A stretch of 64,000 nt of DNA. It comes from Heloderma charlesbogerti. Taxonomy: Eukaryota; Chordata; Lepidosauria; Squamata; Helodermatidae. Of the stretch, positions 1,224 through 60,580 are shown one piece after another (position 1 is the stretch's first letter; each line of letters begins with the position of its first letter). The notes under the pieces were generated by a model that was not told the DNA's origin, made no database searches, and saw nothing but the letters and a program-made list of their open reading frames with translations. The position numbers were made by a program, and so were the translations under genes. The stretch covers positions 1,426,001 to 1,490,000 of the forward strand of contig JANEZZ010000793.1 in the NCBI GenBank assembly GCA_026122225.1, written 5' to 3'.

Positions 1224-21310
<20,087 letters not shown>

Positions 21311-23776: not shown

Positions 23777-23947
23777 CTTTTTCCTATCTTTTCTTCTGTT
23801 TCTGCAAACCTTATGGCTCCCCCAAGTCTGCTGATACCTCTCTTCTTATTTGAAGGTTAGTCACAGTTGTGGCTACATAAGCAACTGCACTCACAGAACT
23901 AAGATTGCTATTAGTATATTAGCAGGCTGGAGATGGAGATTAGCAGG

Positions 23948-26190
23948 CACCAGATGGTCAATATCGAAATCAGATTGATTATGTCCTTTGCAGCCAAAGA
24001 TGGAGAAGCTCCATACAGTCAGTCAAAACAAGACCTGGAGCTGACTGTGGCTCAGATCATGAGCTGCTTCTTGCAAAATTTCGGCTTAAATTGAAGAACG
24101 TCGGGAAAACCACTAAACCGTTCAGGTATGACCTAAATCATATCCCTGATGAATATACAGTGGAGGTGAGGAATAGATTTCAGGGATTAGACCTGATAGA
24201 CAGAGTGCCTGAGGAACTATGGACGGAGGTCCGTAACATTGTTCAGGAGGCAGCAACGAAATCCGTCCCAAAGAAAAAGAAATGTAAGAAAGCCAAGTGG
24301 CTGTCAGATGAGGCTTTACAAGTAGCTCACGAAAGAAGGGAAGCGAAAAGCAAGGGAGAAAGGGGAAGATACACCCAACTGAATGCAGAGTTCCAGAGAA
24401 TAGCAAGGAGAGACAAGAAGGCCTTCTTAAATGAACAATGCAAAGAAATCGAGGAAAACAACAGAATGGGAAAGACTAGAGATCTCTTCAAGAAAATTGG
24501 AGATCTCAAGGGAACGTTTTGTGCCAAGACGGGCATGATAAAGGACAAAGAAGGCAGGGACCTAACAGAAGCAGATGAGATTAAGAAGAGGTGGCAAGAA
24601 TACACAGAAGAACTATACAGGAAAGATCTGAATGTCCCTGATAGCCATGATAGTGCGGTCATTGAACTTGAGCCGGACATCCTAGAGAGTGAAGTCAAGT
24701 GGGCCTTAGGAAGCATTAGTAACAACAAAGCTAGCGGAGATGACAGTATTCCAGCCGAGCTATTTAAAATCCTAGAAGATGATGCTGTTAAAGTGCTGCA
24801 TTCAATATGCCAACAAATCTGGAACACTCAACAGTGGCCACAAGACTGGAAAAGGTCAGTTTACATTCCAATTCCAAAGAAGGGCAATGCCAAAGAGTGT
24901 TCAAACTACCGCACCATTGCGCTCATTTCACATGCCAGCAAGGTGATGCTCAAAATCCTACAAGCTAGGCTTCAGCAGTATGCGAACCGAGAACTACCGG
25001 AAGTACAAGCTGGGTTTAGAAGAGGCAGAGGAACTAGAGATCAAATCGCCAACATTCGCTGCATCATGGAGAAAGCAAGAGAATTCCAGAAAAACGTCTA
25101 TTTCTGCTTCATTGACTACGCTAAAGCCTTTGATTGTGTGGATCACAACAAACTGTGGCAAATTCTTAAAGAGATGGGAGTACCAGACCACCTTACCTGT
25201 CTCCTGAGAAACCTGTACGAGGATCAAGAAGCAACAGTAAGAACCACACATGGAACAACCGAGTGGTTCAAAATTGGGAAAGGAGTACGACAAGGCTGCA
25301 TATTGTCACCCTGCTTATTTAACTTATATGCAGAGTACATCATGAGAAATGCCGGGTTGGATGAATCAGAGGTTGGAATTAAGATTGCCGGGAGAATTAT
25401 CAACAACCTCCGATATGCAGACGATACCACCCTAATGGCAGAAAGCGAAGAGGATCTCAAGAGCCTCTTGTTGAGGGTGAAAGAGGAGAGTGCAAAAGCT
25501 GGTTTGAAACTCAACATTAAAAAAACTAAGATCATGGCATCTGGCCCTATCACTTCCTGGCATATAGAAGGGGAAGAAATGGAAGCAGTGACAGATTTTA
25601 CTTTCTTGGGCTCCAAGATCACCGCAGACGGTGACTGTAGCCATGAAATTAAAAGACGCTTGCTCCTTGGGAGGAAAGCTATGGCCAACCTAGACAGCAT
25701 AGTAAGAAGCAGAGACATCACCTTGCCTACAAAGGTCCGTCTAATCAAAGCTATGGTTTTCCCAGTAGTAATGTATGGCTGTGAGAGCTGGACTATAAGG
25801 AAGGCTGAGCGCCGAAGAATTGATGCTTTCGAACTATGGTGCTGGAGAAGACTCTTACGAGTCCCCTGGACTGCAAGGAGGTCAAATCAGTCCATCCTAA
25901 AGGAAATCAACCCTGAGTGCTCATTGGAAGGACAGATAATGAAGCTGAAGCTCCAATATTTTGGCCACCTAATGCGAAGAGAAAACTCCCTGGAAAAGAC
26001 CCTGATGCTGGGAAAGACTGAAGGCAAAAGGAGAAGGGGACGGCAGAGGATGAGATGGCTAGATAGCATCACGGATGCAATGAATATGAACTTGAGCACG
26101 CTCCGGGAGAGAACGCAGGACAGGAAGGCCTGGCGTGCTATGGTCCATGGGGTCACGAAGAGTCGGACACGACTGAACGACTGAACAACA
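23948..26190 (+). mobile_element. BovB (RTE) LINE, 5'-truncated, long open frame
   Basis: Reverse-transcriptase half of a BovB element. The frame is open from the 5' truncation (about 23950) to a stop at 26184, about 745 codons. Visible motifs are FIDYAKAFDCVDHNKLW (motif A), GVRQGCILSPCLFNLYAEY (motif B), YADD (motif C) and the RTE tail segments MYGCESWTIRKAE and RRRGRQRMRWLDSI. It ends in an AACAACAACAA tail. The endonuclease domain is missing, so it is not autonomous. Lack of stops suggests recent insertion. It is aligned from the residue corresponding to 35118 in the full-length copy. Confidence 0.93.
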
Positions 26191-33700: not shown

Positions 33701-36700
33701 CGATCCCCATCATCTCCAGGTCGGTTTTGATAAATTCTTGTCTGAAATCTTGGAGAGCCACTGCTGTCAGTCTGTGCTAACAATACTGGGCTAGATGGAC
33801 CAAGGTTCTGACTCAGCATGAGGCAGCTTCCTATGTTCCTGAGTAAAACTGGATCCAGAATAGAAGTATTCCCATCTATTTAGACAACTGAATCAGCCTT
33901 TGATAAAAATGCTTCGAATGAATGAAATAAATACATTTGTTACAGTCAACTGAAAACATAAAAAAGAGCACAGCGTCAATAAAATGGATGATAAGGAATC
34001 ACAAAGTAAGAACTAGTGATCATAGCAGGATCAAAAGATACATTTTAACATTTTGCTGTCTGTTCACAGATATAGTCCCCTCAAGAGGGTTCTAAAGACT
34101 GGACAGTGCCTCATGAGAGGATAGATCACAACTATAGTAAAAGATCCCCTTCGTGGATCACTGCCTTGTTGTGGCGAAGGGGCTTGCGTAACTCAGTGAA
34201 GCCATAAGCTATGCCGTGCAGGGCCACCCAAGACGGACAGGTCATGGCGGAGAGTTCTGACAAAATGTGGTCCACTGGAGAAGGAAATGGCAACCCACTC
34301 CAGTATTCTTGCCAAGAAAACCCCATGAAACATATCACAAGGCTAAAAGATATGACGCCGGAAGATGAGCCCCTCAGGTCGGAAGGTGTCCACTATACTA
34401 CTGGGGAAGAGCAGAGGGAATTTCCAAGTAGCGCCAGAAAGAGTGAAGCGGCTGGGCCAAAGCCGAATGAACACTCAGCTGTGGATGTGTCTGGTGGTGA
34501 AAAGAAAATCCGATGCTGTAAAGAACAATATTGTTTAGGAACCTGGAATGTCAGATCAATGAATCAAGGTAAGCTGGAGGTGGTCAAACATGAGATGGTG
34601 AGACTGAACATCGACATCTTGGGAATCAGCGAACTAAAATGGACAGGCATGGGCGAATTTAATTCAGGTGACCATCGTATCTACTATTGTGGGCAAGAAT
34701 CCCTTAGAAGAAATGGAGTAGCACTCATAGTCAACAAAAGGGTGGGAAAAGCAGTACTGCGGTACAATCTTAAAAATGATAGAATGATCTCAGTATGAAT
34801 CCAAGGCAAACCATTCAACATCACAGTAATTCAAGTCTATGCCCCAACCACTGAGGCCGAAGAAGCTGAGGTTGATCGGTTCTATGAAGACCTACAACAC
34901 CTTCTAGAACTAACACCAAACAAAGATGTCCTCTTCATCATAGGGGATTGGAATGCTGAAGTAGGAAGTCAAGAAATCACCGGGATAACAGGCAGGCATG
35001 GCCTTGGTGTACAAAATGAAGCAGGACAAAGGCTAATCGAGTTTTGCCAAGAGAACACGCTGATCATAGCAAACACTCTTTTCCAATAGCACAAGAGGCG
35101 ACTCTACACATGGACATCACCAGATGGTCAATATCGAAATCAGATTGATTATGCCCTTTGCAGTCAAAGATGGAGAAGCTCTATACAGTCAGTAAAAACA
35201 AGACCTGGAGCTGACTGTGGCTCAGATCATGAGCTGCTTCTTGCAAAATTTCGGCTTAAATTTGAGAACGTAGGGAAAACCACTAAACCATTCAGGTATG
35301 ACCTAAATCATATCCCTTATGAATATACAGTGGAGGTGAGGAATAGATTTCAGGGATTAGACCTGATAGACAGAGTGCCTGAGGAACTATGGACGGAGGT
35401 CCGTAACACTGTTCAGGAGGCAGCAACGAAATCCATCCCAAAGAAAAAGAAATGCAAGAAAGCCAAGTGGCTGTCTGATGAGGCTTTACAAGTAGCTGAG
35501 GAAAGAAGGGAAGCAAAAAGCAAGGGAGAAAGGGGAAGATATACCCAACTGAATGCAGAGTTCCAGAGAATAGCAAGGAGAGACAAGAAGGCCTTCTTAA
35601 ATGAACAATGCAAAGAAATCGAGGAAAACAACAGAATGGGAAAGACTAGAGATCTCTTCAAGAAAATTGGAAATCTCAAGGGAACGTTTTGTGCAAAGAC
35701 GGGCATGATAAAGGACAAAGAAGGCAGGGACCTAACAGAAGCAGATGAGATTAAGAAGAGATGGAAAGAATACACAGAAGAACTATACAGGAAAGATCTG
35801 AATGTCCCTGATAGCCATGATAGTGCGGTCACTGAACTTGAGCCGGACATCCTAGAAAGTGAAGTCAAGTGGGCCTTAGGAAGCATTAGTAACAACAAAG
35901 CTAGCGGAGATGACAGTATTCCAGCTGAGCTATTTAAAATCCTAAAAGATGATGCTGTTAAAGTGCTGCACTCAATATGCCAACAAATTTGGAACACTCA
36001 ACAATGGCCGCAAGACTGGAAAAGGTCAGTTTACATTCCAATTCCAAAGAAGGGCAACGCCAAAGAGTGTTCAAACTACCGCACAATTGCGCTCATTTCA
36101 CATGCCAGCAAGGTGATGCTCAAAATCCTACAAGCTAGGCTTCAGCAGTATGCGAACCGAGAATTACCGGAAGTACAAGCTGGGTTTCGAAGAGGCAGAG
36201 GAACTAGAGATCAAATCGCCAACATTCGCTGCACCATGGAGAAAGCAAGAGAATTCCAGAAAAACGTCTATTTCTGCTTCATTGACTACGCTAAAGCCTT
36301 TGATTGTGTGAATCACAACAAACTGTGGCAAATTCTTAAAGTGATGGGAGTACCAGACCACCTTACCTGTCTCCTGAGAAACCTGTACGAGGCTCAAGAA
36401 GCAACAGTAAGAACCAGACATGGAACAACCGAGTGGTTCAAAATTGGGAAAGGAGTACGACAAGGCTGCATATTGTCACCCTGCTTATTTAACTTATATG
36501 CAGAGTACATCATGAGAAATGCCGGGTTGGATGAATCACAGGTCGGAATTAAGATTGCTGGGAGAATTAACTCCCATATGCAGACGATACCACCCTAATG
36601 GCAGAAAGCAAAGAGGATCTCAAGAGCCTCTTGTTGAGGGTGAAAGAGGAGAGTGCAAAAGCTGGTTTGAAACTCAACATTAAAAAAACTAAGATCATGG

Positions 36701-44780: not shown

Positions 44781-44949
44781 AGCTGGAGCTCCGCAGCCAA
44801 TCGCCGCCATCGGCCCCTGCCACTCTCAGGATGGCGCTTCACGCCACCGCCCGTTCGCCCACCCACCGACCCAAATCCCTTCTTCCCGTCAGCCGCAGGA
44901 AGGGCGCGCGCGCCCAAACTCTCGCGAGATCTGCCGGCTCACTTAAGCG

Positions 44950-46801: not shown

Positions 46802-46938
46802 ATGGCTGATTCTGATGAAATGGAATGCTCGTTGGTAGACGATGAGGGAGAGTTCACCAGTGGCCACTCCTCCCAAGATTTCCCGCAGTTGGAAACTTTC
46901 TCAGCTGGAACTTTTCCTGACAATCAAGATTCTGCAGT
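46802..46938 (+). CDS. TAF1D: TAF1D first coding exon
   Basis: Residues 1-45 plus two nt, acidic (MADSDEMECSLVDDEGEF). The exon probably starts at 46783 after TCTCTACACTAG. The donor GT|GTGAGC is chosen because the alternative two bases earlier would give an immediate stop in exon 2. Confidence 0.85.
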
Positions 46939-49900
46939 GTGAGCACTTATATATATTTTGTATCTGCATGTTTTGTAAAGCAGGCCTGCGTTGAAGATTG
47001 CAGTTTAGCATTTCATTAAATGACTTCCTTTAGTGTAAAAATTGCAGACATAGCTGTCTCATGTCTGAAAAAGATAAAACTCAGTTTTAACAAGCTGTTA
47101 AAAGCACACAGGTTTGTTTAATATCATACCTTTTTACCCAGTGGGTCCACAGCGACAACAGTCCAGTACTTATCAGTACAGAGCAGTGGTTTAAAAGTAG
47201 GCGCAGGAGACAGTTTAGAAAGAGACAACATTGAAAGAGTACAACTTGTTCCTTAAAGGCTAATGGGAACTTGACTCTGTAGAGGAGAGCATTCTCCAGT
47301 TGAGATGCTGCTGCTGAAGATACCGTACTTCTTGTGGTTGCCAAGCTAGCCTGACGAAATGGGTGCCTTGCCTGAAGATGTTCTCAGTTGGATATGCGTA
47401 CACTCTTTGAAAGGACTTGTCAAATCTGATGTAGAGTATAACGTAGGGTGTGGAAATGCAGGCCCAGGGGTCAATTCCAGACCTCCCGGGGTCCCAGTCT
47501 GGACCTCTGGGTTTCTCAGATGGCCACACCCTTTCCCCAGACTGTTGGGTATTTTCCTTGCTTTTGTACAGTTTTTTTCCATTCTGAAAGGTTAAAATGC
47601 CTCTCCTAAGGCTTCGTTACTGGCAGTAAAAGCTTTAATGCTGGTGTTTTTGGCCTTACCTCTTTTGCCTTTGGCCCTGCCCACTACTGGAATGCGGCCC
47701 CCAAGAATGTCTCTAAAATGGAAATTGGGATGAAAGAAGTTCAGCACTCCGGTTGTTAAGGATTTATTAACAGCACCACCAAAGAGTAACTTTGCTTTTG
47801 TTGCTTCAACAGGACTAACTCTGGCCTGCATTTGCTGAAGCACTCAAGAAAGAAAGTGGGAACTCCAAGTTCAGCAAAGCTTGCTAAGTATGGCCAAACG
47901 CAGGGTGGTCCTTCAGTTGGCTCTGTGAAGTCTGGAGGTCAGTTTAAGTTGCCTAAACCTAAAATTGACCTCAGAGCCCTCTTTGACTACCACTTCCGAA
48001 GGAAGCAGTATAGGAACCACAGAAGGTGGAGACCAAATGAGAAAAAAGCTAAACGCAAGACTCCACAAGAGTGTACAAAGGCATCGCGGAAAAGGACCTC
48101 AAAGGATGAGCGAAAAAGGCAATATAAAGAGAGGGGCTTTCAGTTTCCTTTTGTAGAGAGATGCTATGGAAGGAAACACCTTCCTTTAAAAATGGTGTGT
48201 CTGTATGAGGTATGTTAGGCTTTCTGAGTGGCAGTCTTAATTAAAAAATTATTTGCCATTGGAAAGCCCTGTTGGTGTATTACATAACAAATTAAATTGG
48301 CTGGTATCTTCCGTCCTAGTTTTTGTTCAGAACAAATCTGTTCTCTCCTAGGAAGCAGCGTTAAAAGGATTCTTCAAATACATTGAAATGCTGAAATATG
48401 AACACCACCTGAAGAAATCTCTGATGCAGTTGAATGCTGGGGATGATCTTGAAAAGGAGTGTCTGGAATCACGGAAGCACAAATACCTGGATGATGATGG
48501 GCCTCTTTCTCCCATTGAGGAAACAAAGTAGGGATAATCATGCTTTCTCAATCTCTTTATTGCATCTTTCACTCCATTGAAAGTTGAGGCAGGAGTCCAG
48601 GGCAGGAATCCGCCTATCTGGATCATCCTAGCATAGCCTTTGCCAACCTGGTGACCTTGAGGTGTATTGGACTACAGCTCCCAACATGCCTCAGCTAGCA
48701 TTGCCAATGGCTGTGTTCCTGCGGGATGGTGGGAGTTGTAGTCCAGCATCTGGAGGGCACCAGGTTGGTGAAGGCTGTGCTAGGTCATCTTTCCCATCTG
48801 TGTTTGTTTTGGTAATTGATCGTTTTCAGAAGTTAGGTTTTCATACATGCCTGGGTTGAAAATACCATAGGAATTGGTCTCCTTCTCTAGGCAACTATCC
48901 CCTTAAACAATACTTTGAGAGAAACAAATCAAGCCCCAGGAATAACCTGAAGTTATGTTTGTCAAACTTGTTTAGTGCATTTTCAGAAACATCTGTTAAA
49001 GAAAAGATTTTTCCTAATGTGTTCCTGTAATTTGTGTGGAGGAAATGCCCCTAATACTTGTGGTTCAAGTATGGACAAGAACTAAAACTGCCCTCATGTT
49101 CAGACTCCCTGAAAGACTCAGCGCTGTGAAAGGAAGAGGATTCTATAACATCCCTTCAATTACCTAGGAATAGATCTTTTAAACAAAGCAGCATACGTGT
49201 ACTGTAGCCTTCCCCCTACGGCTGTTTTGGACTACAGCTCCCACCAGTCCTGAGCATTGGCCGTGCTGGCTGAGCCTGATGGAAATTGAAGTCGAAAATA
49301 TCTGGAGGGCACCAGGTTGGGGAAAGCTGGTGTAGTGGCAAAGTGAGCTGCAAAACAGGAAGGCCCTGGTTTGAATCTTGCCTCTGCTGCAGTATGGTGA
49401 ATAATACTACATTCCATACAAGGGTGATTGTAGGAATTACAATTGAATAATGCATGTGAAGTGCTTTAAATACATGGAAGTGTTATACAGATGTTAATTA
49501 TTCAGGGCTTCTACTTTTCCTTGTAACATACAGTTACGTAGAGCTTATTTGTGGCAATTACTGTATTTCAGTGGAGATGACCCAAATGAGAATTCTGGTG
49601 ATGAAGACATTGGTGCCAAGATAGTGGTAAGCTTCCTGTGACTGATCACTTATTGGGCGAGTTCGCATGTTGGGGGTAACAGGGTTTGTTCTTGGCTTCA
49701 GATTCTGGCTTGTTAAGAGAGCAACAAGCCAGGATATCCTGGTTTGGATATAATACTAAACAAACTGAACGAGGGTTTCCTGGTTTGTTTAGATGCTCCA
49801 GCTGGCAGGAAGAGCTAAGCTTCGTGACTGTGCAGTGTATACCATAAGAATTCTGGCTTAAGCACAAACCAGCCTGTTGCAATGATATTAAAGCCATTTA

Positions 49901-52531
49901 GGGTGCGATACTATGCATGTTTAGACAAAAACAAGCCCTACACCTCCCACCATTCTTCAGCCAGCATTCATTCACTCTAGAATGCAGCCTACCAGCAATA
50001 CTCCTAAACAAGTCTTTTGGGGGGTTTGTGCCATAAAACCCTTTTCCAACCTATTTTGCCAATATTGATGAACCGATAAACCTTTGTTTTTAATCATGCA
50101 CCTAGAATGTTTATTGGATTGTACAGATACAAATCATTGTTGTGAAAGCAGCCAGTTAGTATGCGTGCTTGCTCACAAAATCTATTTTTGAGATTAAAAA
50201 CTTGTTCAGTTAGATCTGTTCAATTGCTCTGACACTGTCAGTCTGTTGGGGTCTCTGGGAATACCCAACCTGTGTTTCTCTTCCATTACTATAGGACAAA
50301 AGCTGTTTCATATTAAGTAGCAAAATTCCAAAGAAGAAGAAATCCAAGAAGAAGACAACGTGAGTGGGACTGTTTGGGGACTGTGAGGAGAGGGAGAACT
50401 ATAGAGATTCAGTACTGAATACTTAGAACGTTTGTAAATGTTAAAAATGCTGCATTCCAGGTCTTGAGCTTGTTCTCATTAATCATAGTTTAAATAAACC
50501 ACAGTCCCCCAAGTTCAGCTGTCATGGGAAATGTAGCTCGTTTGTAACTGGAAGCAGAACCTTCTGATAGTGCTGGGGCAATGGGGGGGGTGTCAGCCTG
50601 AAGCTTGCTGTAGCTAATTCAGCTAGAAGGAAATCATAGCTTCTTGTTGCATCTGAATCGGACCAGTATCTCATAACCCATCTTCTTGCTCCCAGCCACA
50701 TTGGAGTAGGAAGGTGTACAAGATGGGCAGGTGTGGTGGTTTCAGATCCTAGAGCCTGTAAGCAAGCCTTCCCCAACCTGGAGATGTTTTGGACTCCCAA
50801 TCCCATCATCCCTGACCAGTGGCTAGGAATAATGGGAGTTGTAGTCCAAAACATCTGGAAAGGTGCAAGCTTGGGGGAGGCATTGGTTGGACATTCCTTC
50901 TAAGACCTTCCTGATTTACAAGTGCTTTTACTGAGACAAGTGCAGATGTTAACATCCAAGTTTCACTAGAGCAGGTTGTTTTCTACCGTTCTTGTTGCCT
51001 TGTGGTTTGGCATTATAATAGGGGTTTTTTGGGGGGTAGGCCTTAACTGGTATTTTATGGGTTAATTTTAATGTGGTGAGCTGCTTTGGGAGCCAGTGTT
51101 GCTGAAAAGTGGGACGGAAATGCCACAGCTCTACTGTTGGTGTTTTAAGGTAAATGTGTATAGACATTAACGGAAAAAACAGTTAAGTGTTGAGAAACCA
51201 GGCTGTTCAAAAAGTAGTTGCCTGTACAGAAAACAGGAGCTATGTTAATTTATACACAATCAGTCTGCACATTTTGGAGTCTAACCTGTTTAGTGATACT
51301 CCCTTGTGCATTGCGTTTGGCCAGCCACTGAAAACGGGTGCCTTTTGGCATTTCCTGAAAAGTAATTGCATTCCTCGGTGTGTTACTCAGTTGTGGCCTC
51401 AACCCCAACACCTTAGTATATTAAACATTCCCCCGTGCTAGTTTTTTTCTAACCCCCCCCCCCCCCAGCCTGACCATGTTGCAGTAGTTTCACTGCATTT
51501 CTAGCATGCAGAGCTGTAGTCTTCCTGAAAGCAGGAGCTGGCAGCAGCAGCACCCCCCCCGGATTGGTTCCTTCCATACACAAAACATCGGTGGCTTTTA
51601 TGCCGGCATCTTGCTTCTCAAATTGCTTATCCAGACTTTGACCTGATGAATTACTAGTTGTTCCCATGGTGTCATTGCATATGTCTTATTTTTACTCTGC
51701 AGCTGTCTGGCTTCAGGAGTAGTACCTTCAGTTGCAGCTGTCCTGGTATAGCCCCAAATAGGCGTTTTTCCTGCAGTAGTGAGCTGCCTTAAGCACCGTT
51801 TTCTTGGCGGAAAGATGGGGTATAAAACAAATAAAAGCATAGATGGGTGGTATCCTCCATCGAATGCTGAAAATGAACATACTGCAGGAAGTAGAATGCA
51901 GGCTCTCCCTTCTTGCTACAGTTCATAAACATTAAGTCTGGTGGTAGATTTCACTGGGTAAACAAGTAACGGGATCTAGATTCTGCACAGCAGTTCGTGT
52001 GATGACTATTTTTCGGTTCAACTGCTGAGTGATTTCAGAAATGAACTCAAATTAATACTCTGACCAGAACTGAGTGCTGAGCAACTAGGGTTGCTTTCTG
52101 CTTGATTGATCACATTCCTTGGGTGCACAAACACTTCCCTTAATGGTTAACGTGAAGACGTATTTCCAGAAAAAGCTCCAGAACATCCTTCCCCCATTCT
52201 GGGGCCTCCAGATATTGGAGGACAGCTCGCATCATCCCTGACTACTGGTGGGGGTGATGGGAACTGTTGCCCAAAACATCGGGCGGGCACCAGATTGAGG
52301 AAGGCTGCTTTAAAAACTGGCTGCCTGAACAGCTCTTGATGGCTAAATAGACACAGTATCCGTAAGTGACTCCTGCTTGTACCTTAACACCTTCATGAGA
52401 AGGTAATGTTGAAAAGTAGCCTCTAGAGAATTCCAGCAAATGCTAAAAGTTGCTGTATGCCTGATGTGCTTTTCTCTTTCCACACCAGCAATTGTGAAAT
52501 GAATGATCTCGTGATACCACTCCTTAACTGA
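46802..52531 (+). CDS. TAF1D: TAF1D, TATA-box-binding protein-associated factor RNA Pol I subunit D (6 coding exons)
   Basis: Subunit of the nucleolar SL1/TIF-IB complex that recruits RNA polymerase I to rDNA promoters. Joined coding exons: 46802-46938, 47813-48209, 48352-48527, 49572-49626, 50295-50359, 52489-52531. They total 873 nt (290 codons plus stop; human 278) and every junction keeps frame. The most conserved block is GFFKYIEMLKYEHHLKKSL with DDDGPLSPIEE (exon 4). Exon 3 encodes a long Lys/Arg-rich segment (residues about 90-160). The C-terminus is short and basic (KIPKKKKSKKKTT) and diverges from mammals. Intron 6 holds a box C/D snoRNA, and the downstream region carries further snoRNA-bearing introns. 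Confidence 0.93.
47447..47757. mobile_element. Same 330-bp repeat, copy 4
   Basis: The left end is lost near 47447. The right part GGAATGCGGCCCCCAAGAATG to AAGTTCAGCACTCCGG is clear. It ends 55 bp before TAF1D coding exon 2. Confidence 0.6.
47813..48209 (+). CDS. TAF1D: TAF1D coding exon 2
   Basis: Residues 46-178, highly basic, with KLPKPKIDLRALFDYHFRRK and GFQFPFVERCYG. The acceptor is TTGCTTCAACAG and the donor GAG|GTATGT. Confidence 0.92.
48352..48527 (+). CDS. TAF1D: TAF1D coding exon 3
   Basis: Residues 179-236 plus two nt, the family's signature segment (AALKGFFKYIEMLKYEHHLK; KYLDDDGPLSPIEE). The acceptor is TTCTCTCCTAG and the donor CAAA|GTAGGG. Confidence 0.94.
48637..48780. mobile_element. 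hAT-like fold-back MITE, copy 12
   Basis: AGCCTTTGCCAACCTGGTG faces CACCAGGTTGGTGAAGGCT. It lies in TAF1D intron 4. Confidence 0.78.
49204..49334. mobile_element. hAT-like fold-back MITE, copy 13
   Basis: The left arm is damaged (TAGCCTTCCCCCTACGGC). The right arm is GCACCAGGTTGGGGAAAGCT. It lies in TAF1D intron 4. Confidence 0.7.
49572..49626 (+). CDS. TAF1D: TAF1D coding exon 4
   Basis: A 55-nt acidic exon (GDDPNENSGDEDIGAKIV). The acceptor is TATTTCAG and the donor AGTG|GTAAGC. It completes codon 237 begun in the previous exon. Confidence 0.88.
49896..49965. mobile_element. Harbinger-like MITE, half copy
   Basis: Left arm only (TTAGGGTGCGATACTATGC to CACCTCCCACCATTC). It lies in TAF1D intron 5. 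Confidence 0.65.
50295..50359 (+). CDS. TAF1D: TAF1D coding exon 5
   Basis: Residues 256-276 plus two nt (DKSCFILSSKIP, then a Lys-rich tail). The acceptor is ACTATAG and the donor CAAC|GTGAGT. Confidence 0.88.
50765..50883. mobile_element. hAT-like fold-back MITE, copy 14
   Basis: GCCTTCCCCAACCTGGAGATG at left, CATCTGGAAAGGTGCAAGC at right. It lies in TAF1D intron 6. Confidence 0.72.
51991..52072 (+). ncRNA. Box C/D snoRNA in TAF1D intron 6
   Basis: Box C GTGATGA at 51999-52005, D' CTGA at 52025-52028, C'-like GTGATTT at 52029-52035 and box D CTGA at 52060-52063. The ends pair as CAGTTC (51991-51996) with GAACTG (52067-52072). The order and spacing are those of a 2'-O-methylation guide. 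Human TAF1D hosts SNORD5 and SNORD6; which of these it matches, if either, cannot be told by eye. Confidence 0.8.
52191..52308. mobile_element. hAT-like fold-back MITE, copy 15
   Basis: CATTCTGGGGCCTCCAGATA and CGGGCGGGCACCAGATTGAG, strongly decayed. It lies in intron 6, between the C/D snoRNA and the last coding exon. Confidence 0.65.
52489..52531 (+). CDS. TAF1D: TAF1D terminal coding exon
   Basis: Encodes the last 14 residues (NCEMNDLVIPLLN preceded by the split Thr codon) and TGA. The acceptor is TTCCACACCAG. The C-terminus is not conserved with human, so another 3' exon could be used in some transcripts. Confidence 0.75.
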
Positions 52532-52952
52532 GGCTCCAAGACCATATGGGACCAACACTTGTCTGTGACACCAGATTGTAGAAAGAAAGATCACTTTACT
52601 TGGAATCTGACTTCAGAACTGTTTGCAATCTCATTGGCCTTGAACTAAGTTCCTGGGCTTGGAAACCCCCATTCATACCTGTGGACTCTTGATGGCTTGC
52701 TGGTAGATTTATTCAGCATGCACCTAGCTGCTCAGCGTTCGTTTCTGTCCTCTTTTCCTTGTTGGAGACTCTGGGTAATAGAGAACAATCCTGCCCTGCT
52801 TTCTTGTTTTCTTGGACATGTTGGAGTTCAGAGGCAATGGTGAACTGTCTATAGCCATCCAGCTTGGTGTTTGGCACACAGGTATCCTGGTCAGTGGCTC
52901 AACCTCATCTTCAAATCTAAGCTGATGACAAGGGCTGTGGGAAAGCCGGAAC

Positions 52953-52958
52953 AATAAA
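52953..52958 (+). terminator. Candidate TAF1D poly(A) signal (coding isoform)
   Basis: AATAAA 420 nt after the TAF1D stop. Longer transcripts reading into the snoRNA region would have to bypass it. Confidence 0.5.
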
Positions 52959-53476
52959 CTGAAATCTCTATGCCAATTGCAATCGGTGCATCTGAAGAAC
53001 TGCAGGAGGTTACCATGATCCAGCTAGGAGCTTTAACGGAGTCCATATCCTTGTACTTGCTAAATGGAGAGGCTCTGGCAGTGGTGTGTTCTTTGTAGAG
53101 TTTCCCTCCCTCTCCATATACTTTGGTAGTGGCCACCTTTTCTAAATACTTGCAACAGGGTTGCTGCAACCCTTTCCACCTGATCTATACTAAATTGGCC
53201 TAGTCTTGTTTTTGAGTGAAGGTCTTAACTGACATGCTTTCTTGACAATATTTTAAAAGCTTAAGTGGCTGGCTCACCTCTAAGCCCTCGGCATTTAACG
53301 TGACCTGGCTGCTGACAGGAACAGAACGGGAACTTGACGAAGGCTTTTGGACATGGCATATATAGTTTATGGTGCAATATGGCTTCTTTGGACTGGATTA
53401 AGTTCAAGGACCAGAGTTTCCCCATTCCTGGTGTAAATGCAGCTGCCATAAAATACCTCCCTGTCTTGCTTTACAG

Positions 53477-53524
53477 TAGGACTTCATTTGATCTGGAAAA
53501 TGATTTGGCTGGCTGATGCAAGAT
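53477..53524 (+). other. Candidate non-coding exon downstream of TAF1D
   Basis: A 48-nt segment between acceptor TTGCTTTACAG and donor AGAT|GTAAGT. It follows the coding gene and is the first of a series alternating with snoRNA-like introns. Confidence 0.5.
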
Positions 53525-53753
53525 GTAAGTTTGTGTTAAAATTCCTAAGAAATTTCTGTTTCTGATTCAACAAACTGGGTGCTATTGTGCTTCTACAGAG
53601 TTCATTTGGCCACAAGGAAGGGAAAAGGAATGTAGAGATTGTATGACTGAATTGGTCAACTATGGAAACATAAGAACTTCATGGCTGGGTGACCAGCCAG
53701 ATGGGCGATTAATAAATTAAATAAATAAAAATAAATGTTTGTAGTATGTTCCA

Positions 53754-53868
53754 ACAAGTATGTTGCTTTGGTGTACTTGTCAGCATAGCTTCAGGTTTTG
53801 GCTAGTCTTGTAGACAAAAAACCACGGAGCAAGTGCTAAGAATAAATTCTTCTTTGCAACCCACAGTT
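53754..53868 (+). ncRNA. Candidate box H/ACA snoRNA 1
   Basis: The first hairpin closes with ACAAG (53754) and CTTGT. An H-box AGACAA follows at about 53812. The second hairpin has AAGAAT/ATTCTT within GCAA...TTGC. Box ACA is at 53863-53865, with three nt (GTT) after it. The first hairpin's inner pairing is weak. Confidence 0.5.
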
Positions 53869-54251
53869 GATTTGTATTGGCTGTGTTACTTAAAGGAAGG
53901 AACATAACCATAGAAACAGTGCCATGAATACTGCCCTACTTGAATAGCACAAGTTGACTTTTCTGGAATCCCATGAAGCCTGCAGGCAGCTAGAAGAAAC
54001 TAATTTCCAAGCAGAGGGCACAGGCACATAGATGATAAATGTCTTAATATGTGGTAGGCGGTAATGTGTGCTGTTTTTTGTCGACCAGTCTGTAGCAATA
54101 GTTATCAAACTACTACTGTTAACTATTGCTGTAGTAATAGTTATCAAACTAATGTGTGTTTCAGTATATTGCACAAGTACCTTAGATATTCTGAAGAATG
54201 TCCATGAAACAAGTCTGTATCTAAGACTCAGTGTTTCCAAATTCTTTTCAG

Positions 54252-54301
54252 CATTCTTGGACATAAAAGTTGGGAAAGATCCCCTGGATTGGGTCAGAAA
54301 G
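54252..54301 (+). other. Candidate non-coding exon downstream of TAF1D
   Basis: A 50-nt segment with strong acceptor ATTCTTTTCAG and donor AAAG|GTACGT. It lies between two H/ACA candidates. Confidence 0.55.
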
Positions 54302-54375
54302 GTACGTTAACGTTAATGTCCTGCGTCAGGCTATGAACCAGTTTAGGATGTTTTAGTGGGTAGAGAAGTAGCGCT

Positions 54376-54517
54376 AATTGCACTGTATGGTATCTGCATC
54401 CAGCAGCCTATTCCTGATGGCATGTTCAAAAAGCAGTGCAACATCAACTCGGCATGTGGCATCGTTGGTTCTCAAGCTGCTGTGCTTGCTAGACCTGGTA
54501 TTTTTGTTGAAACAGGT
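54376..54517 (+). ncRNA. Box H/ACA snoRNA 2
   Basis: The first hairpin has a perfect 8-bp base, TTGCACTG (54378-54385) with CAGTGCAA (54434-54441). It is followed at once by H-box ACATCA. The second hairpin closes TCAAC/GTTGA. Box ACA is at 54512-54514 with three nt to the end. Confidence 0.72.
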
Positions 54518-54534
54518 AGCATCAATTGGTTGAG

Positions 54535-54645
54535 ACTTCCCCAACCTGGTGCCCTCCAGCTGTATTGATCTACATATCCCATCACTTCCAGCCAGCATGA
54601 CAGTTTTAGTCCAATCCACTTTGAGAGCATTGGGCAGGGGAAGGC
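54535..54645. mobile_element. hAT-like fold-back MITE, copy 16
   Basis: CTTCCCCAACCTGGTGCCC with GAGCATTGGGCAGGGGAAGG. It starts 18 bp after H/ACA snoRNA 2. Confidence 0.7.
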
Positions 54646-55053
54646 TCGATTAACTTAAGGATTTGTTTATTTTACTGTATTGCTATATTATGTTTCTGCG
54701 TTTCCCAATAACCAAAGCTCTCTAGATGGTTCACAAAAACGTAAGACGCAGTGATTTGATTCCAGTGTAGTCTTTGATGCCAGGGTGGCTGTTCAAAGTT
54801 CCCCTATAAGCGCATCACAATGGAGACCTTACATTTTGGAATACATCATCAAAGTACTCTATGGCGATTGATGTCGTACGCTGGAACTTCCTGGCACCAG
54901 AACAGTTACCCTGAAATTATGACGTCCCCATGCAAGTGTGTTTTCTTTATTGTACCAACCACTGGCTGACTGCATTATGCAGTCTAATTTGTCCATGAAA
55001 AACTTATAAAATGTTTCTATCCTGAAGATTTCCTTATGAGATGGCCTCTTAAG

Positions 55054-55093
55054 ATGCAGCAGCAATCATGAAAGCAGCTACTCCATTCTGAAG
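55054..55093 (+). other. Candidate non-coding exon downstream of TAF1D
   Basis: Donor TGAAG|GTAATG at 55093/55094. The acceptor is either GGCCTCTTAAG (55053) or an AG slightly later. Another acceptor, TTTTATTCTAG, ends at 55116, so the exon structure here is ambiguous. Confidence 0.35.
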
Positions 55094-55179
55094 GTAATGT
55101 GTGTCTTTTATTCTAGGGGTAATACTGAGAAGTGGTGGGGAGCCATTGGCCTGTTGAACTCCCACTCAATTGGAAACTC

Positions 55180-55314
55180 TGCCTTGTTGGTGTGGTAAAT
55201 GTGGGCACATGCCATATTGTGTCTGAACTAAGCAATGAGGCTACAGAAAACACAGGTTATGCTTCCATCCTTGTAAGACAAATTACACTGGTGACAATGA
55301 GACCTGTAATAAGC
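55180..55314 (+). ncRNA. Box H/ACA-type snoRNA 3 with AUA tail box
   Basis: The first hairpin base GCCTTGTT (55181-55188) pairs with AATGAGGC (55234-55241; 8 bp, two G-U) around ATGTG/CACAT. The H-box is ACAGAA. The second hairpin closes ACAGGT (55252) with ACCTGT (55302-55307). The 3' box is ATA at 55309-55311, three nt from the inferred end; AUA is a known variant of ACA. Confidence 0.68.
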
Positions 55315-56413
55315 ATGTCTGGAGGTCTGTGTCAGGTAAATGGAGATACAGGAAGTAAATCGGGCATCTCAGTGTTAAAGTATCTAAGCAAACTTAGTGC
55401 TAAAACTATTTGAGGATGTCAGATTCTGTTCCTAGAACTGGAATAGGGGAAAGTCGAAAGCCATCAAGCTCTGCCCCAAGCAGGACTGTTATCTAACCAG
55501 CTCTCCACAGTTCAGGCCTTACCACTCATACTGTGCTGTCCCTAAGAGGGTGAAGGCGCATGATCAGGCCAACTTGTATTTAGCCACTCGCCTGGTCACC
55601 AGAGGCAACAAGCAGATGAGAGTGGTTTGTGAGCACAGAGGAGTGCTCCTTAGCACAGCTCCTTCTATTTATGCAGGGGGGCGGGGGGGATGCTTCCTCT
55701 GCTCCCAGTGTAGAAACCAAGGGGCTGCCACTCCCTCCATCCCTTAGGAATCCCCCCTGCATTTCTGTGCTCTCCATGGCAGAGGGGAAGCCCTTTCTGC
55801 TGTGGCCAGCATAGAAATGGAGGGAGCAACGTATGTGGATCAGCAGCGGCCTCTGACCCTGGGGGCGACCTAACCAGTGCAAGACAGAAGGAGTGGTGAG
55901 GAGCAGATCTGCTGCTGCTGCCCCTGCCCTGCTTTTGCGGCTGGGCAGCCAATTTCATGGGAAGTGGTGGCTGAATGACACATGGGATGTGTTGTACCAC
56001 ATTTCCGACCTCCCCGCCCCAGCCCACCCCCAGGAATGCCCTGTTTTTGCTGCTCTGCACTGCTTTCTAGAGTGTGGGGCCAATCTGTACTGCCTGGGGG
56101 AGGGGTTAGTTCTCTGGGAACCGACCTATCCTATGGCTGTCTAGCTGCTGACCAGCGGCCATAGGATTGTGCCCTTAGCCTGCTTTTTTTTTTTACTCAT
56201 AAGAACTCTCCCTCCTCTCCCAGTCCCTCTTACAAGTAAAAAGCAGGTTAGTAACTGTTGCGGGCATATTGACATGCAAGGCAAACCAAGTCAATGGTGG
56301 TTTGTTTTGCATATGAGCAATATATGTGCTTGAAAGTTTAAAAAAAATGTTTATGCCAATAGATTGGGCCATAAATGGAGCTTTACTGAATTGTTACCTC
56401 TTTGTTTTTCAAG

Positions 56414-56451
56414 GAATCCAGATAATGAGCATCTGTCTCCTAAATAAATTG
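56414..56451 (+). other. Candidate non-coding exon downstream of TAF1D
   Basis: A 38-nt segment with acceptor TTTGTTTTTCAAG and donor ATTG|GTAAGA. It contains an AATAAA-like string. Confidence 0.5.
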
Positions 56452-56671
56452 GTAAGAAGCTGATACTGTTAATTCTGAACATTGCTAATGGGAAGACTCT
56501 GGGATTGATAATTCCCTAATCATAGGTTGTTGCTTGTCTTCCTTCACTGTATAAAGGGAATTGTGCGAATATGTCCTAACCCTGTCTACAGGAGAGGTTG
56601 AACTTTAAAGACTCCGCTTATGTCAAAATAGGGAAGAAATGTATTCTTTTCATAGTAGAGGCTATGGTAAG

Positions 56672-56746
56672 GAGTTGTTGTGATGATTGGCAAGGTGTTC
56701 AACTGCTCTGAAAAGCATGAATGATAAACAGCCATTCTGAACATGC
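56672..56746 (+). ncRNA. Box C/D snoRNA candidate (second)
   Basis: Box C GTGATGA at 56680-56686, D' CTGA at 56708-56711, C' ATGATAA at 56721-56727 and box D CTGA at 56737-56740. The terminal stem is short (TGT/ACA), so the ends are less certain than for the intron 6 snoRNA. Confidence 0.65.
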
Positions 56747-56879
56747 TGATTGACCAGCTAGTCTATGTGAAATAGCTAGCTGGCTGTTTGATTATTTGTT
56801 CTGTGAAGGAAAACGTCCTGGAACTCTGCATAGCCAAACTGGGACTAGGACAAGTTGATGTGCTGCTATGTAGGTCGGA

Positions 56880-57010
56880 GTGAGCAGAAGGTAGACCTCC
56901 AGGTTTTTTGGACTTCAATTCCCATAAGCCCTTGCCAGCATGGTCAGTGGTCAGGAATGCTTGGAGCTGAAGTCCAAAACATCTGGAGATTCACCTTCTG
57001 TCCCCCACTC
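56880..57010. mobile_element. hAT-like fold-back MITE, copy 17
   Basis: AGCAGAAGGTAGACCTCC and GGAGATTCACCTTCTGTCC: the GCAGAAGGTAG subtype, as in copy 9. Confidence 0.72.
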
Positions 57011-57350
57011 CTCCTGTAGATCTCAGACCTATGGCAGATAAGTTACAAATGTGGTGTCCTTCCGTGGGAACCCTGAACAAACTCTGGAGTTCTTCATTGC
57101 CTAGCAAGGGGGAAAGCTCTAATTTACCAGCCTGCCTCTTGTTTCAGGAGTTCAAGCTGATGCACTGCTTAAATATAGCAGCTGTTTGCATACGATTTCT
57201 TCTTGTGGATTGGTCTCTTCAGAGTAGGGCTGGGCATAGTTGGTAAAGAGCAGGAGTTTCGAATAAGCAGGTTCTGCAGAAACATCTTTGTAATGACCGT
57301 GCTTGATGTATGTTCTTACGTGGCTGCAAACTGGCAGCTGGCTCTTCCAG

Positions 57351-57412
57351 GTAGGAAATGCGGCACAAGTGCAATGAAGCTGCTCCAGCTGGGGAAACGG
57401 CTGCGTATCAAG
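57351..57412 (+). other. Candidate non-coding exon downstream of TAF1D
   Basis: A 62-nt segment with acceptor GGCTCTTCCAG and donor TCAAG|GTATGG. Another acceptor, GCCTCTTGTTTCAG, at 57147 may start an earlier exon ending at ATAGTTG|GTAAAG (57240). Confidence 0.5.
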
Positions 57413-57461
57413 GTATGGAAACTTGTTTTAGCTTAATCTTTCAAGCCTAGGGGGTGGCAAT

Positions 57462-57530
57462 GGTGGCTGGCAATGATGGGAGTTGCAGTCCGCAACATAT
57501 CCAGAGGGCAGCAGTTTGGGGAAGGCTGCT
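57462..57530. mobile_element. hAT-like MITE, half copy
   Basis: Right half (GATGGGAGTTGCAGTCC to GGGGAAGGCTGC). Confidence 0.6.
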
Positions 57531-57869
57531 CTGGGGTTATAGCTGTACATCCCAAGAGCTTACTAGCCAAAATGCAAGATCGCAGAAAAGGTTGTTATTA
57601 GTATTTATTACATTTATATGCTGCCCCATAGCCTAAGCTGTCTGGGGAGTTTACAATAGTTAAAAGCATTAAAATACAATACACAAAGTTTAAAAGCCAT
57701 TTACGTAAAAGCACACAGACAATATACACAAACAACGTATAACTAAAAACAACTTTGAACCATCAGTCATAACTGAAGACATTCAGGACTGATTAAAAGT
57801 CATCTTGAGCTGCCAGATAGAAAAAGTCAATAGAAACCTATTAATATCTTACAGGCCTTAACAATAATA

Positions 57870-57999
57870 TTGAGGCCTATCCCGATGGCGCCTTGCTGTA
57901 GGCTCTTGTCGTTGGAAATGCCTCAGAGAGCAAACTTGTGGTTTCGCTTTACCCACTAAACTATGTGTTAGATTGGTGGGATAAAACTGCAAGACAGTT
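57870..57999 (+). ncRNA. Box H/ACA snoRNA 4
   Basis: The first hairpin closes GAGGC (57872-57876) with GCCTC (57920-57924). H-box AGAGCA is at 57927-57932. The second hairpin has a 10-bp base, CTTGTGGTTT (57935) with AAACTGCAAG (57984-57993, two G-U), an inner CCCAC/GTGGG and CTAA/TTAG. Box ACA is at 57994-57996, then GTT. This is one of the clearest of the set. Confidence 0.8.
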
Positions 58000-58064
58000 C
58001 CGTATTGGGTGATTTCAACCCACACTCCTAAGAGTAGGCACTAAGAAATCTTGTCTCTCTGCAG

Positions 58065-58120
58065 GCATAGACATCGTTGTAACTGTGCCAGCGTTGCTGG
58101 AAATATGTTCATGAAAAGGT
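58065..58120 (+). other. Candidate non-coding exon downstream of TAF1D
   Basis: A segment of about 56 nt with acceptor TTGTCTCTCTGCAG and donor AAAAG|GTAATG. It lies directly after an H/ACA snoRNA. Confidence 0.55.
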
Positions 58121-58369
58121 AATGTCCTTAAGTCTTTGTATCTGTAACCTGCTGAGCTTGGCACAGCTTTCATAAAATGCTGTGGAAGAAGTAGCATGAA
58201 TGTACGAATGGTCTTGGTCGTAGAATAACAAAATTGCCAATCGCTGGGGAGTGTTATGAAGGTGGTTTAAAAACCTTGCTTAGTAACAAGATACCTCCAT
58301 TTCCAGAACACCAGAAATAAACTGGCTCATCTGTAGGCAGAGTTCTGGGCTTGAATCAGCAACCCCACT

Positions 58370-58499
58370 TGGTTGACTAGTAGTCTTTATGGCTGTGTGC
58401 CACTCAAGGATAAAGTGAGAAGACTGTACTACTGTTGTAATAAATAAAGCTCTCTGGCGGAAGTGCAGGATGAGAAATAAATGCCAGTTGCCTACATTT
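58370..58499 (+). ncRNA. Candidate box H/ACA snoRNA 5
   Basis: The first hairpin is AGTAGT/ACTACT with inner CTTTAT/ATAAAG and GGC/GCC. The H-box-like AAATAA is at 58442-58447. The second hairpin is CTGGC/GCCAG, with box ACA at 58494-58496. Six nt separate the last stem from ACA, and an AATAAATAAA string overlaps the hinge, so this is less certain. Confidence 0.5.
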
Positions 58500-58578
58500 T
58501 TTCTATGACATAACCAAAGTATATTAAATAGAGTATTAGCCACAGCAGCAAACCAGTCATCCATCCTCCATCACTCTT

Positions 58579-58600
58579 CAGTTCTTTACCTCAAAGCTGG
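58579..58600 (+). other. Possible short non-coding exon
   Basis: Pyrimidine-rich acceptor CCATCACTCTTCAG followed by donor-like GCTG|GTACCC. It would separate two neighbouring snoRNA candidates into different introns. Confidence 0.25.
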
Positions 58601-58666
58601 TACCCAACAGCAACAAACCATGGTGGTGTAAAAAGTATGCTTTAAAACGACATTGGGATAAGTTAC

Positions 58667-58788
58667 CTGGTCTCTACCAAGGCTGCTAGGAAATGCCATT
58701 TCTGGTATGCTGTGGACGTGACCGGAAAGTAACTCCTCCAGATTTTTGTTTTGCTACTCTGGTAGCATCAGATCTGCTGGAAACATTT
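58667..58788 (+). ncRNA. Box H/ACA snoRNA 6
   Basis: The first hairpin is GGTC (58669) with GACC (58720-58723) and inner ATGCCA/TGGTAT. H-box AAAGTA is at 58726-58731. The second hairpin is CCAG/CTGG with inner TGCTAC/GTAGCA. Box ACA is at 58783-58785, three nt from the inferred end. Confidence 0.75.
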
Positions 58789-59002
58789 AGCAAAAGCCAG
58801 GAGTGGAGGCCTGTAGTCTGAGAGCTGTAACCCAAAGAACCCTGTAGAGACCTGTACACACTTGTCACCAATGCCTTGTGACATTCCCCATTAGATTGGT
58901 GAGGCCCTGCAGACAAATCTCCACTAGATCCTATTCAGGCTGCTGAAAGTTCAGTTTCCTAGAGTTGCTTAATGCTAACGTATGCGCTAACCCTGTTTTC
59001 CA

Positions 59003-59099
59003 GCAGCTATTGGCAGTGAGTCAGTACCAGGAAATGCACGAGAAATTCTGAAACGGAATGTGCAAGACAAGCAGGAGTGGGCTTCAGATGGTGCTAGAG
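59003..59099 (+). other. Candidate non-coding exon downstream of TAF1D
   Basis: A segment of about 97 nt with acceptor CCCTGTTTTCCAG and donor TAGAG|GTAAAG, the longest of the series. It shows no convincing coding frame. Confidence 0.5.
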
Positions 59100-59131
59100 G
59101 TAAAGCTGGATGATATTGGGACCCCTTCTCA

Positions 59132-59262
59132 AAAGGTCACTTCAAAGAGGGCTGTATTGTGTTGAACAAACAGCTCTTAACGCAGTGACCTAATATGGAA
59201 ATCCTCTGCAGGATATCAAGGGTACTTAGTGTGCTCTGTGGTCTATACCAGAGGAGACATGC
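59132..59262 (+). ncRNA. Box H/ACA snoRNA 7
   Basis: The first hairpin base AGGTCACT (59134-59141) pairs perfectly with AGTGACCT (59184-59191), with inner GGCTGT/ACAGCT. The hinge AATATGGA is an imperfect H-box. The second hairpin base TCCTCTG (59202-59208) pairs with CAGAGGA (59249-59255). Box ACA is at 59257-59259. Confidence 0.75.
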
Positions 59263-59713: not shown

Positions 59714-60580
59714 CTGGCATTGCTCACTTGCAGTGCTTAAGCAGCTGTGTAACACACAAGTCTTCATGGGAATGGTCTGGTTCCCTACATAAACAAAGCT
59801 TGGCCATATTCTAAGTTTCTCGTGTCCTCCCTTTCTCTCACATACTTGGGTACCTCTTCCTCCTTGTGTGCTTTCTGTAAGGCATCACACAATCAGGGAG
59901 CCGCTATTAAATGTTTTTGGTTCAGTTCATGTTCAGCTTCCAATACATTAGCTTTCGTTCAGGTCGGTAAAGTTTTAGTAACCAGCTATTTCAGGGGTGG
60001 GAGGAAAGTAGATCTGGATCTACTGATGGATCTGTCATTTGCAGTAGATCCTACTCCCTGTTGGTTTAACAATAGCAACAACAAAAAGCTGTTTTCCCTT
60101 CTACATGAGGCTCTTGAAATGAAGAAAGCCTGGGATAACCCAGGAGCAGACTTGTGTGTGAAAGGACTGTGAGCTCAGTTCGGTTCTGACACTTAAAAAC
60201 AAACTCCTGGACTCCAAATGCTCAGAAGGACCCTGTTCTTTCTAAGTGTCTGTCTTTTTCACCCAGCTCTGGTTGGTGGATTTTTGGGTTCTAGTAAAAA
60301 CAAAGTAAATCCAGCAAGCCTGAGGTTTGCCCAGCCTTGACTAGTTCAGTTCTTATTCATAGCATTATTTATAGTTATTTGGACAGTGGGGTAGAGCAAG
60401 CTAATGGGTCTAAAACTGTTGCAACCAGTGTCATCAATAAGTACAATTAAGTGCGTGAGACATACACTTCATTTTGTACTGTTAAATTTACTGGGCAGAG
60501 CTTTAATCCACTAACAAATGCCCTGGAGATTCCCCCCATCTCTTGCTCAATCACATTCACACCCTAATGATGTGTCAGAG

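Follow-up and report, generated by a model that had tools for sequence, protein, structure and literature searches.

A TAF1D locus of Heloderma charlesbogerti with eight guide RNAs in an order between those of human and chicken

Does the TAF1D (JOSD3) gene of a squamate carry the set of small nucleolar RNAs (snoRNAs) published for human TAF1D, and where do these guide RNAs lie relative to the stop codon of their host? We addressed this question in 64,000 nucleotides of the Heloderma charlesbogerti genome (assembly GCA_026122225.1, contig JANEZZ010000793.1, positions 1,426,001 to 1,490,000; hereafter the window, with positions counted from its first letter). An earlier note on this DNA, made from its letters and open reading frames, had proposed a reptile TAF1D gene with about nine guide RNAs on its strand, two of the box C/D and seven of the box H/ACA type. 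We found eight, all on the TAF1D strand: two are of the box C/D type and six of the H/ACA type. We have little doubt that the locus is the squamate orthologue of the vertebrate TAF1D snoRNA host gene and works in the manner proposed below.

Results and Discussion

Eight guide RNAs on the TAF1D strand

A search of the whole window, on both strands, with Rfam covariance models at their curated gathering cut-offs gave seven matches, all on the forward strand between 51993 and 58788 (E-values from 8.7e-22 to 1.7e-06). From 5' to 3', these are SNORD5 (51993-52068; RF01161, 58.9 bits against a cut-off of 55), SNORA40 (53782-53906; RF00561, 56.2 bits, cut-off 51), SNORA8 (54379-54517; RF00393, 92.8 bits, cut-off 38), SNORA1 (55180-55314; RF00408, 75.1 bits, cut-off 70), snoZ40, which we equate with SNORD6 (56673-56746; RF00342, 59.0 bits, cut-off 50), SNORA18 (57869-57999; RF00425, 123.6 bits, cut-off 70) and SNORA32 (58668-58788; RF00421, 72.6 bits, cut-off 60). 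A permissive scan of 47-64 kb, which admitted E-values up to 5 and returned 30 matches, added SNORA25 on the same strand (59134-59261; RF00402, 75.3 bits, E 6.7e-12). All eight members of the TAF1D snoRNA host set were found on the host strand, seven of them above the gathering score. The same eight guide RNAs are reported from introns of one host gene, TAF1D, in human (PMC2653536). The E-values and the identity with the set published for this host make the Heloderma set more than a chance assemblage.

Both box C/D RNAs carry the C box GUGAUGA (RUGAUGA expected) and the expected D box CUGA. The six H/ACA RNAs match their family models over the full length, and SNORA8, SNORA18, SNORA32 and SNORA40 each present two hairpins, a hinge box ANANNA and an ACA near the 3' end. 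SNORD5 lies ahead of the TAF1D stop codon (TGA, 52529-52531) and the other seven guide RNAs lie beyond it.

The covariance models bear out eight of the structures described in the earlier note, seven of them above curated cut-offs, including the two box C/D RNAs, the common strand, the single guide RNA ahead of the stop codon and the agreement with the human set. The count of about nine falls to eight: six of the seven H/ACA structures stand, and the seventh, for which no coordinates had been given, found no counterpart at E-values up to 5. No ninth snoRNA was present among the 30 permissive matches in 47-64 kb. The two further snoRNA rows were cross-matches at known loci (the SNORD5 model on SNORD6 and the SNORA30 model on SNORA40), and the remaining rows in the same interval (microRNA families, FasX, NPPA-AS1_3 and U6atac) were all below their cut-offs. 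Among them, the mir-5408, mir-3160 and mir-616 matches each overlap a copy of a palindromic repeat and were rejected.

Boxes and stems alone proved to be weak evidence, since a box-and-stem scan of the whole window yielded 119 candidates over the two strands (each member of an overlapping group being counted), recovered only four of the six H/ACA RNAs (ranks 4, 9, 11 and 12; SNORA1 and SNORA25 were missed) and left eight of its top 12 candidates without Rfam support. The extra H/ACA structure of the earlier note is therefore most likely a false positive. On the forward strand of the interval in which the guide RNAs had been claimed, the scan placed eight candidates, two of them clear of the known guide RNAs. 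We rejected both: the one at 52217-52331 sits on a copy of the interspersed palindromic repeat and lacks Rfam support, and the one at 58386-58496 has a score of -16.7 (-38 to -50 for the four recovered RNAs), no pocket and no Rfam support.

The TAF1D reading frame and the exons beyond its stop codon

The TAF1D open reading frame could be followed across the junctions of six coding exons on the forward strand, from the ATG at 46802 to the TGA at 52529-52531, and encodes a protein of 290 residues. Its first five coding exons (46802-46938, 47813-48209, 48352-48527, 49572-49626 and 50295-50359) are supported by the frame, the Pfam domain PF15333 and matches to squamate proteins. The sixth (52489-53524), placed by splice scores and reading frame, carries the final 13 codons, the stop codon and then the 3' untranslated region; it may be split by an intron ahead of a small exon at 53477-53524. 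The identification as reptile TAF1D in the earlier note proved sound: the domain was matched at 3.4e-49, and the best of the 120 proteins listed, out of 173 found, are from squamates. These best matches are from Rhineura (65% identical over 92%), Hemicordylus (61% over 96%), Elgaria (67% over 87%) and Varanus (64% over 91%), and none of the listed proteins is from a close relative. The last coding exon is further supported because the C-terminus NCEMNDL also occurs in Elgaria TAF1D. SNORD5 occupies the last coding intron, which the earlier note had numbered 6; the position is right, and the number holds if one untranslated first exon exists, in which case coding exons 1-5 are exons 2-6 of the gene. 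Retention of the last coding intron would bring an in-frame TGA at 50361-50363, within the donor (50358-50363), and a protein 13 residues shorter.

Downstream of the stop codon, exons were picked by eye and then scored with a simple splice-site model based on nucleotide frequencies. The predicted non-coding exons are 54252-54301 (acceptor 8.21, donor 9.35), 54983-55093 (a weak acceptor of 1.44, donor 7.02), 56414-56451 (10.85 and 7.17), 57148-57350 (10.19 and 8.92, with an alternative donor at 57412), 58065-58118 (9.23 and 7.02) and 59004-59099 (acceptor 6.71, or 7.38 at 59007; donor 6.97), all on the forward strand. A predicted last exon follows from 59546 to approximately 59930 (acceptor 6.24), in which an ATTAAA at 59906 and the GT-rich stretch after it plausibly mark the transcript end. 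With SNORA25 ending at 59261, the transcription unit likely extends past 59.3 kb, as had been anticipated. The predicted splice sites, which are not a unique solution of the model, bracket all eight guide RNAs, and the seven predicted exons after the stop-codon exon would therefore give each guide RNA its own intron; one guide RNA per intron, another proposal of the earlier note, is a prediction from the splice-site scores. Should the small exon mentioned above indeed begin at the strong acceptor at 53477, there would be eight exons beyond the stop, the number reported for human.

As seven of the eight guide RNAs stand after the stop codon, they could in principle belong to a second, non-coding host gene that lies downstream of TAF1D and is driven from a promoter of its own. 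TAF1D itself could terminate ahead of that gene, at the AATAAA at 52953 and the AATAAA-rich stretch at 53711-53735. Against such a gene, SNORD5 lies inside a coding intron of TAF1D and a good donor (53524) follows the stop codon. In addition, a human TAF1D isoform runs past the normal stop into eight further exons and is a predicted decay substrate (PMC11771880), and the chicken set resides within one host gene (PMC2653536). We accordingly give very little credence to a separate gene and retain a single TAF1D host for the whole set.

Guide elements and ribosomal RNA targets

Guide elements were compared with fragments of ribosomal RNA (rRNA) picked because they hold the expected sites, with one element for each of five of the eight RNAs. 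SNORD5 forms 11 pairs with a 28S stretch (three of 200 shuffled targets as good), and SNORD6 forms 13 with the same stretch, including one G-U (one of 200). The 3' pocket of SNORA40 forms 9+5 pairs, one of them G-U, at its 18S site (none of 500 shuffles as good), the 5' pocket of SNORA25 forms 7+5 pairs at its 18S site (one of 500) and a pocket of SNORA32 forms 6+4 pairs (four of 300). The corresponding pocket pairs reported for chicken are 7+4, 7+5 and 7+4 for SNORA40, SNORA25 and SNORA32, respectively (PMC2653536). The D' boxes of SNORD5 (GUGA) and SNORD6 (CUGA) would place the modified positions two bases apart, as in mgh28S-2409 and mgh28S-2411, which correspond to chicken C2183 and G2185 (PMC2653536).

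SNORD5 and SNORD6 share an antisense stretch. They resemble each other over 34-35 bases at 68% (blastn E 0.77-2.3), and the SNORD5 model gives SNORD6 a score of 27.4 bits (E 1); the two may have arisen by an old duplication inside the gene.

Two of the copies, SNORA25 and SNORA1, could have decayed and make no functional RNA. SNORA25 scores under its gathering threshold and has no strict hinge box ANANNA, and SNORA1, whose score is near its cut-off, has AUA in place of ACA near the 3' end. Nevertheless, SNORA25 retains the pocket match given above, both RNAs retain their position and strand, and the Rfam consensus of SNORA25 itself has AUA rather than ACA near the 3' end, so this box varies. 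Decay of either copy is improbable in our view, and we count both among the guide RNAs of TAF1D.

A model for the expression of the host gene

RNA polymerase II would transcribe TAF1D, probably from a promoter common to C11orf54. An early transcript end would yield the messenger RNA for TAF1D, the SL1 subunit, whereas splicing onward past the stop codon to ~59.9 kb would remove seven further guide-RNA introns. The long spliced transcript is expected to undergo nonsense-mediated decay because its predicted exon junctions lie downstream of the stop codon, a distance of over 50 bases being what marks a transcript for this pathway. Trimming of the excised introns would release the mature guide RNAs. 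As the only guide RNA within the coding part, SNORD5 would be produced with either 3' end, and the other seven would require the long transcript. SNORD5 and SNORD6, with the same antisense sequence and different D' spacing, would methylate C2409 and G2411 of 28S rRNA (human numbering), and the H/ACA RNAs would direct pseudouridines in 18S and 28S rRNA. That the transcription unit mainly serves ribosome biogenesis, as the earlier note held, is an inference. Association with dyskerin is reported for human TAF1D isoforms in which introns containing H/ACA RNAs are retained (PMC9394076).

Several observations weigh against this account. The guide RNAs and exons are known here from DNA sequence, and SNORA25 falls short of its Rfam cut-off (75.3 against 85 bits). 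The exon model is not unique because the same scoring finds, between 50.3 and 60 kb, 26 strong donors and 31 strong acceptors, and three of the acceptors used, 54983 (1.44), 59004 (6.71) and 59546 (6.24), lie outside the strong set. If the acceptor at 54983 is false, SNORA8 and SNORA1 would share one intron, although the acceptor of a coding exon (49572) likewise scores just 1.61. The two box C/D RNAs are separated from the next predicted 3' splice site by 401-420 bases, where 70-80 are usual in mammals. As for the targets, three of the 12 H/ACA pockets (one each of SNORA25, SNORA40 and SNORA32) were compared with rRNA, in chosen fragments. Targeting of C2409 by SNORD5 requires the imperfect D' box GUGA, and under the fifth-base rule the perfect CUGA at 52025 would direct SNORD5 to a U two bases past G2411. 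SNORA8 and SNORA18 are listed as orphans in chicken (PMC2653536).

Order of the guide RNAs in amniotes

The locus is an ordinary orthologue of a known host gene, and its informative part is the order of the guide RNAs: SNORD5, SNORA40, SNORA8, SNORA1, SNORD6, SNORA18, SNORA32 and SNORA25. We take human TAF1D to lie on the minus strand. The human list, which we took as gene order, reads ACA40, ACA18, mgh28S-2409, ACA8, ACA1, mgh28S-2411, ACA32 and ACA25 (PMC2653536), i.e., SNORA40-SNORA18-SNORD5-SNORA8-SNORA1-SNORD6-SNORA32-SNORA25, and differs from that of Heloderma by two single-gene moves. In a human chromosome 11 table, SNORD5 is grouped with SNORA18, and SNORA25 is grouped with SNORA32 (PMC4234469); the coordinates given there agree with the list, provided that TAF1D has this orientation. 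Introns 5-12 of the chicken host gene (ENSGALESTG00000033205, snoRNA cluster 15) hold SNORD5, SNORA40, SNORA1, SNORD6, SNORA18, SNORA8, SNORA32 and SNORA25 (PMC2653536), the same eight with SNORD5 first and SNORA25 last as in Heloderma. A single move separates the two: chicken SNORA8 is in intron 10, between SNORA18 and SNORA32, whereas Heloderma SNORA8 is ahead of SNORA1.

Measured by the longest common order on these lists, the distances are two between human and Heloderma, one between Heloderma and chicken, and three between human and chicken. The Heloderma order is one of the 17, out of 40,320 possible orders, that lie on a shortest path from human to chicken, both end points included. Given this intermediate order, the simplest reading is that SNORA8 moved in the bird line and that the other order differences are older. 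We moderately favour a history in which the guide RNA content has been constant since the amniote ancestor and the RNAs changed introns: the move of SNORA8 would fall in the bird (archosaur) line after the split from squamates, the differences in SNORA18 and SNORD5/SNORA40 would be older and common to squamates and birds, and the squamate locus would keep the intermediate step. The ancestral side of the differences other than SNORA8 requires an outgroup. The locus offers an ordered case of guide RNAs switching introns within a single host gene, none being lost, and is relevant to the 'constrained drift' model for the positions of snoRNAs (PMC3511168).

No relics of moved guide RNAs were seen in a blastn search of all eight against the window, in which matches other than self matches had E-values of 0.067 or higher. 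A squamate order for the TAF1D snoRNAs was not found in the literature searched, which did not extend to Additional file 6 of PMC2653536. Citing this file, that paper sets the chicken order apart from 'the human and other vertebrates', and the species covered by its Additional file 3 include lizard; an order for a lizard may therefore be in print already and may conflict with the present one.

Neighbouring genes and repeats

On the reverse strand, pieces of DUF1907, which we assign to the C11orf54 family, lie between TAF1D and the first exon of MED17, the MED17 exon being matched to a PDB sequence at 1.1e-30. The same TAF1D/C11orf54/MED17 neighbourhood exists in human. CEP295, a further neighbour in human, was sought downstream, and the three reverse-strand frames of 59.9-64 kb gave no Pfam match. 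The palindrome TCTCGCGAGA, found as an exact motif at 44920-44929, upstream of TAF1D, between this gene and the reverse-strand C11orf54-family gene, is what we take to be a BANP-type motif of promoters of essential genes, and is possibly a promoter element common to both genes.

Elsewhere in the window, two forward-strand reverse-transcriptase frames, at 23944-26184 (746 residues, RVT_1 2.3e-40) and 35090-36598 (502 residues, RVT_1 8.3e-27), presumably belong to BovB/RTE long interspersed nuclear elements (LINEs), and such long open frames suggest that the elements inserted fairly recently. A broken second LINE on the forward strand (17021-20242), CR1-like by eye, has an endonuclease frame at 18259-18759 and a reverse-transcriptase frame at 19694-20242; its frame at 17021-17851 had no Pfam match. 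The palindromic repeat is interspersed in many copies, such as those at 48660-48751, 50782-50856, 52205-52310 and 56901-56984. As sub-threshold matches to mir-5408 and mir-3160 fall on its copies, these Rfam families may derive from an element of this kind.

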